DNA from: Ponticoccus alexandrii
GTDB lineage: Bacteria > Pseudomonadota > Alphaproteobacteria > Rhodobacterales > Rhodobacteraceae
Assembly: GCF_016806125.1 (NCBI RefSeq)
Contig: NZ_CP047166.1
Location: 992,001-1,056,000 of the forward strand
DNA: 64,000 nt
Reading direction: 5' to 3'
A model generated the notes under the pieces. It ran no database searches. It saw nothing but the letters and a program-made list of their open reading frames with translations, and had not been told where the DNA came from. Every line of letters begins with the position of its first letter. Position 1 is the stretch's first letter. Shown piece by piece: positions 1-12,563 of this stretch. The position numbers were made by a program, and so were the translations under genes.

Positions 1-91
1 CCAGCATCTCGGCGGTCAGCGCGTTGGCCTTGTCGGGCCGGTCCAGCACCGCGATCCAGAGGCCGGACGCCTCTTTCTCCAGCCGGATCAC
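1..91 (-). CDS. Enoyl-CoA hydratase/isomerase family protein (N-terminal fragment)
   Basis: Only the first 30 codons lie in the window; the gene runs off the left edge. The fragment reads MIRLEKEASGLWIAV and then LDRPDKANALT, the usual first strand and turn of crotonases, in which an R-P-x-x-x-N-A-L/x-T stretch precedes the helix leading to the acyl-CoA pocket. The GTG start overlaps the TGA of the upstream dehydrogenase by four bases (GTGA), so the two are translationally coupled and probably act in one acyl-CoA or hydroxyacyl-CoA pathway. The substrate cannot be told from this piece. Confidence 0.7.
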   Translation of the reverse strand, partial: MIRLEKEASGLWIAVLDRPDKANALTAEML

Positions 92-7723: not shown

Positions 7724-7747
7724 CTATAAAAGACGGTGAGGCGAGGC

Positions 7748-10700
7748 ATGGCATCATATCAGGCACGGGGGCGCGATCCCCTCTTCGACAGCGACACGGC
7801 GGCAACGCTGGAACGGCGCGGGCGTGAACTGGTGGGTGTCGGGCTGGTGATTGTCGGGCTGATCGTCTCGGCGATGATCGCCTCCTACTCGCCGGACGAC
7901 CCGAGCTTCCTCTCGGCCACGGACGCGCCGGTGCAGAACTGGATGGGGCGCATGGGCGCCTATATCGCCGCGCCGCTCTTCATGATCGTGGGCGCTGGCG
8001 CCTGGGCGCTGGCGGCGGTCTTCCTGACATGGGGCGGGCGGCTGATCCTGCACCGGGGGCAGGGTCGCGCCATGACCTGCCTGATCTTCGCCCCCATCTG
8101 GGTCGCCCTCTGCTCGGTCTATGCCTCGGGCCTGACGGAAGGCGCCGAGTGGGGCCACAACTTCGGCATGGGTGGCCTCTTCGGCGACATGATGATGGGG
8201 TCGATCATCGGCATCCTGCCGTTCTCTGTGGGTCTCGGGCTGAAGCTGGCCCAGCTTTTCCTGGGGCTGGGTATCCTTGGCCTTGGCGCCTTCGTGCTGG
8301 GCTTTACCCGCCCCGAACTGAAGGCGATCGGACGCTTCGGCCTGATCGGACTTCTGGTCAGCTACGCCACCTTCGTGCGCATCGCCGGGCGCTCTGCCTC
8401 GGGTGCCATGAGCGGTGCCATGACCGGCGCACAACGGCTTCAGGCTGCCCAGCAAGAGCGCCGCGCCCGTCGCATGGCAGAGGCCGATGCCGCCGCTGCC
8501 GCGCAAGAGGCGATTCCCATGGCCGCGCCCGCGCCGCTGGTCGCGACCCGCGTACGCCGCGCCGACCCGTTGCCCGCCGCGCCGGTCTACGAGGACGACG
8601 ACGACTACATCTTCGAGGATGACGCGGTTTATGACGAACCCGCCGTCCCCGCGCAGCCCGAGAAGGGCGGGTTCCTGTCTCGGATGCCTTCGCTGATCCG
8701 CCGTGCCGAGCCGATGCCAGAGCCGGAACTGGTGACCCGCGAGGTCGATCACGACATCGATGCCCCGGGCGAGGACCGCATCCGCGCCAAGATTGCCAAG
8801 GCGGTCAGCGCGCGCGGCAAACCCGTGGCCGTGCCGGGTGTGCAGAAGCGCCCCGACCCGACGAAGCCGCTGACGAAGGGGCGGGGCCACGGGCCGCAGC
8901 CGCTGATCTTCAAGCCGCAGACGCGCGGCCTGCCGCCAGAGCCGCCTCTGACCGCCGCCGCCCGCAGCCTGCCGCCAGAGCCGCCGCTGACGGCGCATCA
9001 CGCCGCGCCCATGGCCGCAGGCGTCGCGACGGATGCGCTGACCGCGACCCGCGGGCTTGTCCGGGCGCCCGAGCCGCAGGGCGCCATGCCTCGCTTTGCC
9101 GCGCCGCGCCATGCCGAGCCGCAGGAGGCCATGCCGCGCTTTGCCGAACCGCGTGCCGCCGAGCCGCAGGCCGCGGTCGCGCCGGCGCCCGTTGCGCAGC
9201 CGATGCCGGAGCCGGAAGAGGCATGGCAGGACGATGCCGCCTTTGCAGAGATGCGCGATTTCGACGACTACGGTGACGACGACCGCCACGATGACCACCA
9301 TGAGGACCGGGCCGAGGCTTGGCAGGCCGAGGACAGCGCCGCGTGGTCGGCCGAAAGCGCCGGGACATGGTCGGACGACGATTTCGGAGAAGCGGAAGAG
9401 GCCACGATCCTCGACCACTCCACCCCCGCGCCCACGCCGATCCACCGCGCCGCTCCCGCGATGCCGGAGCCGAAGAAGGTCGTGCAGCAGCCGGTGCGCA
9501 AGCCGGTGCAGTTGTCGACCCGCGCCCAGCTGGAGGCGCAGCCCAAGCTGTCCTTCGAGGACCGCAACGTGGACTACGAGCTTCCGCCGCTGTCCCTTCT
9601 GATGTCGCCGGATCAGGTGACGCGCCACGTCCTGTCCGACGAGGCGCTGGAAGAAAACGCGCGGATGCTGGAAACCGTGCTCGACGACTACGGCGTGAAG
9701 GGCGAGATCGTGTCCGTGCGCCCCGGTCCCGTCGTCACCATGTACGAGCTGGAACCGGCGCCGGGCCTGAAGGCCAGCCGTGTCATCGGCCTTGCCGACG
9801 ACATCGCGCGCTCGATGTCGGCTCTGTCCGCGCGCGTCTCGACCGTGCCGGGGCGGTCTGTGATCGGCATCGAACTGCCCAACGACAACCGCGAAATGGT
9901 CTGCTTCCGCGAGATCCTCGCAGGCCGCGAATTCGGCGACGGCAATCACAAGCTGCCGCTTGCCCTCGGCAAGAACATCGGCGGCGATCCGGTCGTGGCC
10001 AACCTTGCCAAGATGCCCCACCTGCTGATCGCGGGCACCACGGGTTCGGGCAAGTCGGTTGCGATCAACACCATGATCCTGTCGCTGCTCTACAAGCTGA
10101 CGCCCGAGGACCTGCGCCTCGTCATGATCGACCCCAAGATGCTGGAACTCTCGGTCTATGACGGCATCCCGCACCTGCTGTCCCCCGTCGTCACCGACCC
10201 CAAGAAGGCCGTCGTGGCCCTGAAGTGGGTCGTGGGCGAGATGGAGGACCGCTATCGCAAGATGTCCAAGATGGGCGTGCGCAACATCGACGGCTACAAC
10301 GGCCGCGTCGCCGACGCGCTGTCGCGGGGCGAGATGTTCGAGCGCACGGTCCAGACCGGCTTTGACGACGAGACCGGCGAGCCCGTCTTCGAGACCGAAC
10401 AGATCGAGCCCAAGAAGATGCCCTACATCGTGGTCATCGTCGACGAGATGGCCGACCTGATGATGGTCGCGGGCAAGGAGATCGAAGCCTGCATCCAGCG
10501 CCTTGCACAGATGGCGCGGGCCTCGGGCATCCACCTCGTGATGGCCACGCAGCGCCCGTCGGTCGACGTCATCACCGGCACGATCAAGGCGAACTTCCCC
10601 ACCCGGATCTCCTTCCAGGTGACCTCGAAGATCGACAGCCGCACCATCCTTGGCGAGATGGGGGCAGAGCAGCTTCTGGGCATGGGCGACATGCTTTACA

Positions 10701-11089
10701 TGGCGGGCGGGTCGCGGATCACGCGCTGCCACGGTCCCTTCGTGTCGGACGAAGAGGTCGAGGAGATCGTCAACCACCTCAAGGCCTTCGGCCCGCCGGA
10801 TTATGTCTCGGGCGTGGTGCAGGGGCCGGACGACGAGAAGGCCGACAATATCGACGCGGTGCTGGGCCTGAACACCGGTGGCAACACCGGGGGCGAGGAC
10901 GCGCTGTACGATCAGGCGGTGGCGATCGTCATCAAGGACCGCAAGTGTTCGACCTCTTACATCCAGCGCAAGCTGGGCATCGGCTACAACAAGGCCGCGC
11001 GCCTCGTCGAGCAGATGGAGGAAGAGGGGGTCGTCTCTGCCGCGAATCACGTCGGCAAGCGCGAGATCCTCGTGCCCGAGCAACAGTAG
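7748..11089 (+). CDS. ftsK: DNA translocase FtsK
   Basis: A 1113-residue FtsK/SpoIIIE protein. Four N-terminal membrane spans (about residues 25-220) anchor it at the septum. A long Ala/Pro/Glu-rich acidic linker (about 220-620) follows, then the hexameric motor with Walker A GTTGSGKS at 763-770 and Walker [11 protein letters not shown] near 899. The C-terminal gamma winged helix ([18 protein letters not shown] region) reads polar DNA sequences. The linker contains two nine-residue repeats (LPPEPPLTA, bases 8930-8956 and 8969-8995) and two 45-base repeats at 9086-9175. It pumps chromosome ends through the septum and activates XerCD at dif. The ATG at 7748 is preceded by GGTGAGGCGAGG. Confidence 0.97.
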
Positions 11090-11143: not shown

Positions 11144-11180
11144 GCGCCGGGCCGGGGGTAACCCGGGTCCGGCGCTTTCA
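11144..11180 (+). terminator. Probable ftsK terminator
   Basis: GCGCCGG (11144-11150) pairs with CCGGCGC (11169-11175), with an inner GGG/CCC stem, followed by TTTCAT. It begins 55 bases after the ftsK stop codon. The T-run is short. Confidence 0.55.
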
Positions 11181-11418
11181 TATCCGGGCGTGCGGGCTGG
11201 GAGCGCGGCGCAGGGCTGCGCCGCAAGCCAAGGGGACTACCGATTCGACGCTCTCGGCGTGGACGGCGAGGGCGCAAGCGCCCTGCTGCTGAAGCGCCGG
11301 GCCTGCCATCAGGTTATAGTGTCGTAGGGGGAGCAGATCGCGCGTCTGCCTGACGGCCTGCCGACGCCATGGGGCCCGCGTCGGCTTTGCCAAAGGTCGG
11401 ATGCAACGCGGCGTCGGT

Positions 11419-11558
11419 GCTGGCAACGGCTGGCGCGACGGGGCTGGCGAAAAGCTGGCGTCAGGGCTGGCTTGCTGGCGGGCTAGCGTGCTGGCTTGCA
11501 AAAATTGCTGGCTTGCTGGGGAGCGAGGAGTTTGCTGGCTTGCGAAAGGCTGGCTGGC
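11419..11558. repeat. GCTGGC short-repeat array
   Basis: Eleven copies of GCTGGC occur in 140 bases, four of them in the longer unit GCTGGCTTGC, all in one orientation on the + strand with irregular spacing. The array is not a continuous coding frame; the two frames that cross it give Leu/Ala/Gly-rich peptides with no ribosome site. Confidence 0.8.
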
Positions 11559-11969
11559 GTCGTCCGGTGCCACAGCGATAGGGCAGGCCTTCCAGGGTTG
11601 CAAGAAAAAATTACTTAAAATCAAATAGTTGACTTTGTTTGTCGAGTATTGCGAGGAAAGTGTTTTTGTCGGGTTTCCCCGGGTTTGGCCTGGCGGGGAT
11701 ACCTGCCCCGCGCGATACCGCCCCGGTGGCCCCCGCGTCGGCCCGACCGACCCCTGCCGTGGAACGCTTTCGCGCCGTTGCGCGTTGCCGCCAGGATCGC
11801 ACCGCGTGAAGCAGCCCCTGTCGTGGACGTGATAGGGCCGGAGCACCGCAGCCCCCCTTGGGGGTTGATCGGCCCCGATCCGCCACCGATATGGGGTTCC
11901 ATGCGGCTGATATCGCATATCAAGGCCCGCCGTGGCACAGTGACCACGACACGATCAGGAAGGACCGAC

Positions 11970-12563
11970 ATGATCCGCAAGACCCTCGCCGCACTGGCCC
12001 TGACCCTGCTTGCGCTGCCCGCGCAGGCACAGCAGCTCTCGCTGGGTGAGATCTCGAAGTATCTCAACTCCATCCAGTCCGCGGTCGGCACCTTCACCCA
12101 GATCAACGCCGATGGCACGATCTCGACCGGCGAGATCTCGATCAAGCGTCCGGGCAAGGTGCGTTTCGACTACAATCCGCCAGAGCGGGCGCTGGTGATG
12201 GCCTCTGCAGGCGCGGTCTATATCCTCGACCGCAAGCTGGGCGCCACCGCCGACACCTATCCGCTGAACCAGACGCCGCTGTCGATCATCCTTGATCGCA
12301 ACGTTGATCTGACCCGTGCTGGCATGGTCACGGCGCACCAGTACGACGGCACCGCGACGGTGGTCACCGCACAGGATCCGAAGCGGCCGGAATACGGGTC
12401 GATCCAGCTGAAATTCACCGGCAGCCCGGTGGAACTGCGCCAGTGGGTGATCACCGACGGGGACGGCACGAAGACGACCGTGGTGCTGGGGGGGCTCCAG
12501 AAGAAAGATCTGCCGAACCGGCTTTTCTACATCGACCCGGAGCTTGAGAAGCTGAGGAATTGA
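11970..12563 (+). CDS. lolA: Outer-membrane lipoprotein carrier protein LolA
   Basis: A 197-residue periplasmic protein with a Sec signal peptide (MIRKTLAALALTLLALPAQAQ, cleavage near residue 20). The mature part shows LolA features: SVGTFTQ-type start (AVGTFTQINADG), GEISIKRPGKVRFDY and a single half-barrel length. LolA takes triacylated lipoproteins from the LolCDE complex and hands them to the outer membrane. The ATG at 11970 follows CAGGAAGGACCG. It lies downstream of ftsK across an unusually long gap and ends in its own terminator, so it is probably transcribed separately. Confidence 0.93.
   Translation: MIRKTLAALALTLLALPAQAQQLSLGEISKYLNSIQSAVGTFTQINADGTISTGEISIKRPGKVRFDYNPPERALVMASAGAVYILDRKLGATADTYPLNQTPLSIILDRNVDLTRAGMVTAHQYDGTATVVTAQDPKRPEYGSIQLKFTGSPVELRQWVITDGDGTKTTVVLGGLQKKDLPNRLFYIDPELEKLRN

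Follow-up and report, generated by a model that had tools for sequence, protein, structure and literature searches.

A GCCAG repeat array with a putative IHF site between ftsK and lolA in Ponticoccus alexandrii and a predicted RNA family of the Rhodobacteraceae

A dense array of GCTGGC hexamers lies between ftsK and lolA in the 64,000-nucleotide stretch of Ponticoccus alexandrii DNA analysed here (hereafter the window). Its meaningful strand is the minus strand, on which the repeat reads GCCAGC, and an AT-rich block at about 11593-11660 belongs to the same feature. The array is most likely transcribed from this strand as the body of a predicted RNA gene with a putative IHF site at its promoter, and the RNA may act as a multi-site decoy; for this whole chain, from IHF-driven minus-strand transcription to decoy action, a probability of about 0.45 is given. 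The array, its conservation, the geometry of IHF site and promoter and the existence of two forms of the element among relatives are properties of the DNA sequence itself. The features are as follows.

7736-11089, plus strand: ftsK (DNA translocase), left neighbour, identified by Pfam including the gamma domain; its stop codon ends at 11089
11144-11418, minus strand: possible 3' part of the RNA, facing the 3' end of ftsK; no intrinsic terminator found
11419-11558, minus strand: array of 11 GCCAGC (GCTGGC on the plus strand), repeat body of the predicted RNA, start-to-start spacing 4-27
11567 (±2), minus strand: predicted transcription start, placed about 7 nt past the -10, with a 5' consensus in relatives
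11575-11580, minus strand: predicted -10, TATCGC; a TA lies 17 bp from TTG(A/C)NN in 19 of 20 elements
11598-11603, minus strand: predicted -35, TTGCAA, with a 17-bp spacer to the -10, from the alignment of relatives
11605-11631, no strand assigned: predicted IHF site, an A6 tract (11605-11610), 8 bp, then AATCAAATAGTTG (11619-11631), the core strongly conserved in 38 elements
11638-11646, minus strand: second conserved box, upstream of the IHF site, consensus CCGAnAAA, here CTCGACAAA
11970-12563, plus strand: lolA, right neighbour, identified by Pfam, ATG at 11970, divergent from the predicted RNA

The array and its conservation within the genus

The original prediction described a dense, one-orientation array, richer in GCTGGC than composition would give, in an 880-base gap between ftsK and lolA. 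All of this holds. Positions 11419-11558 contain 11 GCTGGC and no GCCAGC on the plus strand, four of the 11 in the extended form GCTGGCTTGC; the whole 880-base gap likewise has 11 GCTGGC and no GCCAGC, and both flanking genes are confirmed by Pfam. Dinucleotide shuffles of the gap (2000 in all) never gave more than three hexamers per 140 bases. The source genome comprises five contigs (5.09 Mb), with the array at 1.00 Mb of a 4.13-Mb contig, and 34 other places in it match three GCTGGC with gaps of at most 17. The densest of the 30 such places re-read outside the window has 6 hexamers per 140 bases, against 11 in the array, and the maximum is 4 both in 22 spaced 20-kb genome samples and in the rest of the window. 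Mechanical open reading frames (ORFs) of at least 184 aa cover all 30 re-read places and one further place in the window; because the array also lies inside such an ORF (246 aa, minus strand), ORF cover fails to separate it from other GCTGGC clusters. Two readings of the repeat were rejected at this level: GCTGGCTTGC as a dispersed 10-mer, with 21 genome copies against 15 for a reversed control, and a CRISPR array, for which regular spacers of similar length would be expected rather than the start-to-start spacing of 4-27 seen here.

One other species of the genus (hereafter the sister) was compared. Its gap measures 910 bases and holds 13 hexamers, the two extra ones in a 27-base insertion. 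Between the two species all 64 hexamer positions are identical, whereas 8 of 76 in the spacers differ (Fisher p 0.008); elsewhere in the gap 61 of 632 positions differ, and 99 of 646 fourfold sites in ftsK (15% fourfold divergence). At that fourfold rate, 64 unchanged hexamer positions would have a probability of 2.4e-5. The stretch 11593-11690, with 9 of 98 positions changed, is no better kept than the rest of the gap; its importance follows from the wider family comparison. A further stretch, 11240-11330, appears well conserved in the two-species alignment and could be part of the RNA. The sister's contig (L078 / G001:C11, 181,125 bases) is recorded as Enemella evansiae TN21-6, which is unlikely for the family and apparently a mislabelling. 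Within ftsK itself, a 45-base tandem repeat (2.4 copies) lies at 9069-9174.

A coding reading of the array was also rejected. Plus-strand ORFs of 70 and 75 aa over the array remain open in the sister, the 246-aa minus-strand ORF has a stop there, and none of the three has an excess of third-position changes (5/7/4, 4/7/4 and 25/20/19 by codon position, respectively). The same two-species comparison gives no codon signal across the ftsK-lolA gap.

The predicted promoter and the minus-strand RNA

The IHF consensus consists of the core WATCAANNNNTTR with an upstream A/T tract, and the predicted site at 11605-11631 has both; AATCAAATAGTTG with an A-tract eight bases away fits this consensus and is arranged like the H' site of lambda. 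Read on the minus strand, the A-tract passes into TTGA or TTGC, and a TA follows after 6 + 17 bases. Among 20 elements collected by their IHF core, 19 have TTG(A/C)NN-17-TA, against 0.88 expected from shuffles, and the single exception has an 18-base spacer. Spacers of 14, 15, 16, 18, 19, 20 and 21 bp between TTG(A/C)NN and TA occur in 0, 0, 0, 2, 1, 2 and 4 elements, and on the opposite strand one element has the pattern at 17 bp. The form of the promoter was worded after the 20 elements had been seen, and the sharp preference for a single spacer serves as the control. These elements comprise 12 kept of 26 family-genome matches and 8 new ones among 14 records of a named collection (see below), and include the near-duplicates L067/L084, L069/L070 and L053/L087.

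A larger set of 38 elements (alignment A3) combines 19 of the 20, some with longer flanks, with 19 found later. Of the 34 in which the position of the IHF core relative to the -35 could be scored, 29 have a distance of 27-31 bp and 5 one of 39-40 bp, with none between; TTG(A/C/T)NN-16..18-TA is absent from 4 of the 38. The two distance classes are one helical turn apart, as would be expected if IHF needs one face of the promoter. Most elements also carry the CCGAnAAA box upstream of the IHF core, a possible site for a second regulator. The window's own predicted -35 and -10 hexamers are weak, and a generic promoter and terminator scan of the ftsK-lolA gap reported neither. Transcription, IHF binding and the start site are predicted from the geometry of the aligned elements.

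An RNA driven from this promoter and carrying the array is considered very probable. The first GCCAG of the window stands about ten bases past the predicted start at about 11567, and in nearly all loci the repeats begin less than 50 bases from it. Within 420 nt after the core, the 20 elements contain GCCAG and CTGGC in a ratio of 180:8. The 28 array-only loci, defined as those in which no four-cysteine ORF was found downstream, contain 246 GCCAG against 46.8 expected. Repeat number varies clearly among them (1 to 23 per locus), and the usual context is (A/C)GCCAG(C/A). Copies either overlap by four or stand at least 8 apart, none of 173 spacings being 5-7 nt, and the spacing analysis gave no codon phasing. 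Two loci have perfect tandem copies and would suit a study of repeat turnover: L083 has many GGAAGCTGGC in a row upstream of its core, and L125 at least ten of TCTCTGCCAGC at a contig end.

A first, stricter rule places a terminator near the array in only 3 of the 28 array-only loci. It was relaxed afterwards, and a check of the looser rule against resampled sequence gave 0 to 0.2 terminators per locus. By the relaxed rule 15 of the 28 have a terminator no more than 600 nt past the start, in 13 cases no more than 100 nt from the array end; neither rule finds an intrinsic terminator in the window or the sister. The shortest forms, L134 and L140, are a repeat part of 40-50 bases followed by a terminator. 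C makes up about 40% of the RNA strand, which folds far less readily than its complement but no less than its own shuffles (mean z 0.06, 25 loci). Rfam 15 has no match to the window at gathering thresholds, the best score in the array region being 17.8 bits against 38, and none to 12 element loci (best 29.6 against 45). Of the ideas in the original prediction, that of a repeat-rich small RNA is the one that gains support from the promoter and terminator comparison, but the strand is the minus strand.

Occurrence in the family and a coding form

When the array and its right flank were searched as DNA against 394 family genomes, 18 gave a match: the window's own genome, the sister, 12 with weak matches to the array part and four with matches to the AT-rich part. 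Three of these four carry dense GCTGGC arrays, placed and oriented as in the window. The 12 weak loci (L034-L038, L043-L049) were set aside; L034-L038 resemble gene sequence, and the other seven were judged by hexamer density, L043 having 5 in 150 bases away from its match. A pattern for the AT-rich core matched 26 of the 394 genomes (17 for a reversed control pattern). Twelve were retained: 11 have three or more GCTGGC upstream, and L056 has a weak array. The other 14, which have no array, were dropped as chance. One scan for the core in a named genome collection (84,980 species by its description) matched 14 records, 12 of them with at least three GCTGGC upstream. By title these records are one Alphaproteobacteria metagenome-assembled genome (MAG), one Enemella (the sister's contig) and otherwise Rhodobacteraceae, Rhodobacterales or genera placed there, with Salipiger aestuarii, Epibacterium, Phaeobacter, Pseudophaeobacter, Parasedimentitalea, Zongyanglinia and a Maritimibacter MAG among the titles. 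The array is present in the sister and in other relatives, and the original prediction's own ground for refutation, absence from all close relatives together with no transcript or protein binding, thus does not apply.

Profiles of the promoter region (R1, then R2) place the element in 28 of the 394 family genomes, at 30 places; these genomes have the IHF site and promoter in common, and mostly also the array. The R2 cut was set after the fact at a gap in the scores (accepted at E 1.2e-8 or better, next 3.8e-5), and at E 0.01 R1 and R2 match 42 and 59 of the 394. R1 was trained with 12 of the 28 genomes and brought in the other 16 at E 8.6e-16 to 6.3e-5; the training elements of both profiles include the promoter and the first repeat. 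One genome, G190, was rejected at an R1 E of 6.6e-5, near that of the accepted G100 (6.3e-5), having no recognisable core in the stretch read, and L142/G094 was dropped by eye as a match beside a tRNA-like stretch. Of 190 genomes sampled from the class, none but the window's own exceeds 26 bits. The distribution of the element within the family is patchy, at 28 of 394 genomes. The GCCAG core recurs in 33 loci across many genera, in copies that have diverged and are mostly non-tandem. Viral contigs gave no exact match to one IHF-plus-T-tract pattern and plasmids one match with one query (Paracoccus), and a phage or plasmid origin was rejected on these single searches. Six loci (L054, L079, L084, L086, L127, L141) share a neighbour of the element, an opposite-strand gene for related proteins of about 300 aa.

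In nine of the 28 element genomes the promoter leads into an ORF of 58-66 aa, in each case directly downstream, with four invariant cysteines and the motif CxxC...GxCRxNxP...WPxV...DWCG. The protein was noted at L099, L103, L110, L112-L117 and L143. The other 19, the window's genome included, lack the protein but have retained the promoter, in most cases with a longer array. As the nine coding genomes supplied the protein profile, the informative part is the absence of the protein from the 19. Across 110 family genomes the protein was found in five element genomes, in two without the element (G033, G091) and once weakly. It also occurs, annotated as hypothetical (WP_090613310.1), on plasmid p402633 of Paracoccus alcaliphilus, in the coding form with four GCCAG in the leader. 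Pfam, NCBIfam and PDB gave no credible match for it, and its structure model has a mean pLDDT of 48.9. Leaders of the coding form hold 3-5 GCCAG in six of the nine genomes, one in G350 and none in G174 and G066; since these three leaders have so few, and two array-only loci (L056 and L076) have one GCCAG each, the array is not obligatory. One genome, G110, carries both forms, with its coding form between ftsK and lolA, and in G398 the array-only form takes that place. The array-only gene was probably derived from the leader of the coding form. In the simplest history the leader would have lost its reading frame and its repeats would have multiplied; that repeats can multiply in such a history is indicated by the perfect 10- and 11-base tandem copies of L083 and L125.

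A possible decoy RNA and competing explanations

In the proposed mechanism IHF would bind 11605-11631, bend the DNA and help RNA polymerase to start at the sigma70-like promoter 11603-11575. A C-rich RNA would result, carrying 11 copies of (A/C)GCCAG(C/A) from near its 5' end onward. In relatives the same promoter would drive either a repeat RNA, often followed by a terminator, or the four-cysteine mRNA, in most cases with a few copies in its leader. The repeat RNA would then titrate a factor that recognises this motif in the leaders of mRNAs, its capacity set by the copy number. Competition for a GCCAG-reading factor is proposed because the motif has many copies in variable number and recurs in mRNA leaders; the decoy step, taken by itself, is judged to fall just short of an even chance.

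A chief competitor of the decoy is a trans-acting small RNA (sRNA) that would base-pair, through its repeated GCCAG seeds, with CUGGC in another sRNA or in a large number of mRNAs, each molecule offering several seeds instead of titrating a protein. A 5' seed part followed by a terminator is the usual layout of pairing sRNAs, which the short L140 and L134 share (a repeat-bearing 5' part of 40-50 nt plus terminator), and the first 20 elements show good conservation of their first repeat, GCAGCAAGCCAGA. However, a seed of 5-6 nt is very common in a GC-rich genome (164 GCTGGC on both strands of the window alone), and pairing is considered unlikely, though it is the main rival. A function confined to the leader, as a cis-acting standby or Rho-loading site with the array-only loci as decaying leaders, would accord with the repeats between start site and ORF in six of nine coding genomes and in Paracoccus, with the C-rich RNA strand and with the lack of a terminator in the window. 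Such a function sits poorly with the 19 genomes that have kept the promoter without the protein, with hexamers unchanged within the window's genus and with the terminators after the array in 15 of 28 array-only loci, and this reading is rather improbable. Were GCTGGC instead the operator of a DNA-binding protein positioned immediately past the promoter, the strictly one-sided repeats, so near the predicted start in nearly all loci, would be accounted for. Yet the spacing is irregular and terminators are placed after the array. Among spacings below 40 no helical period stands out, with a Rayleigh p at 10.5 bp of 0.51 over all of them and 0.21 once overlapping copies are removed (0.056 at 10 bp, overlaps again removed), and an operator is still less probable than the leader-only reading. 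Repeats do expand, as L083 and L125 demonstrate, and neutral expansion beside a real promoter would need no function at all; the diverged, mostly non-tandem copies with the same core in 33 loci of many genera, and the complete lack of hexamer changes between two species at 15% fourfold divergence, make it very improbable.

The position beside ftsK had raised the idea of a polar chromosome signal (an FtsK-orienting, origin or terminus site). FtsK-orienting sequences (KOPS) have the motif GGGNAGGG. The array resembles them in being non-palindromic, in one orientation and near ftsK, and it lies between ftsK and lolA in the window, the sister and two other genera. However, it is clustered rather than dispersed and has another motif, a difference from the known FtsK-orienting sequence that the original prediction had already pointed out. 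Sampled GC skew switches sign near 0 and near 2.1 Mb, which leaves the array at 1.00 Mb in mid-replichore, without the replichore skew of KOPS. The strand bias of GCTGGC along the chromosome, which had been proposed as a check, is weak: eleven 20-kb samples up to 1.92 Mb sum to 343:236 (plus to minus strand) and ten between 2.1 and 3.92 Mb to 242:292, sums that leave out the last sample at the contig end (23:18). Moreover, ftsK or lolA is near the element in only 4 of 39 loci (the window, the sister, G110 and G398), within flanks of 1.5 kb or a few kb. The sampled skew and bias speak against an FtsK-orienting, origin or terminus role, and a polar role is extremely improbable.

Decoy RNAs of the CsrB/RsmZ type carry many copies of a short motif in one RNA. 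In E. coli and Salmonella, csrB is described as having a putative IHF site, with UvrY needing IHF for optimal binding and expression, in the relevant passages of PMC4682653. The array RNA would likewise combine a multi-copy short motif with a putative IHF site at its promoter; it differs in its motif, GCCAG, and in the existence of a coding leader form. CsrA motifs are not enriched in the 28 array-only loci (GGA 34 against 26.9 expected, ANGGA 8 against 5.8). The CcsR-type sRNAs of Rhodobacter are alphaproteobacterial, have a repeated short motif, CCUCCUCCC, and are linked to a small-protein gene. That motif is not the repeat here, and CCTCC is depleted in the same 28 loci (5 against 16.1 expected). 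With GGA near expectation and CCTCC depleted, the predicted RNA is by motif a member of neither the CsrB nor the CcsR group. A further likeness is to sRNAs derived from mRNA leaders, as the array-only gene apparently descends from the leader of a small-protein mRNA, but here the reading frame has been lost or, as in G110, the array-only gene occupies a locus of its own, rather than being a processed piece of a retained mRNA. Literature searches, one of them for GCCAGC in alphaproteobacterial sRNAs, found no description of the element, though an sRNA already listed for R. pomeroyi or P. denitrificans (PMC4809877, PMC5107571, PMC4682653) may be the same one.

Taken across the Rhodobacteraceae, the elements tentatively suggest an RNA family in which leader sites of a four-cysteine mRNA were amplified into a stand-alone, IHF-driven decoy with 1-23 GCCAG, and which would point to an undiscovered GCCAG-reading RNA-binding factor or partner RNA; the odds for this wider proposal are set somewhat below even. 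The one-turn jump in the distance between IHF site and promoter would offer a clean natural test of face-of-the-helix activation. If the proposal is true, it adds an RNA family without a match in Rfam 15 and a case in which repeat expansion turned an mRNA leader into a non-coding decoy gene, both stages being found among living genera and also within one genome. Natural RNAs carrying twelve or more sites would then also serve as bait for an RNA-binding regulator in a group that includes many marine bacteria.
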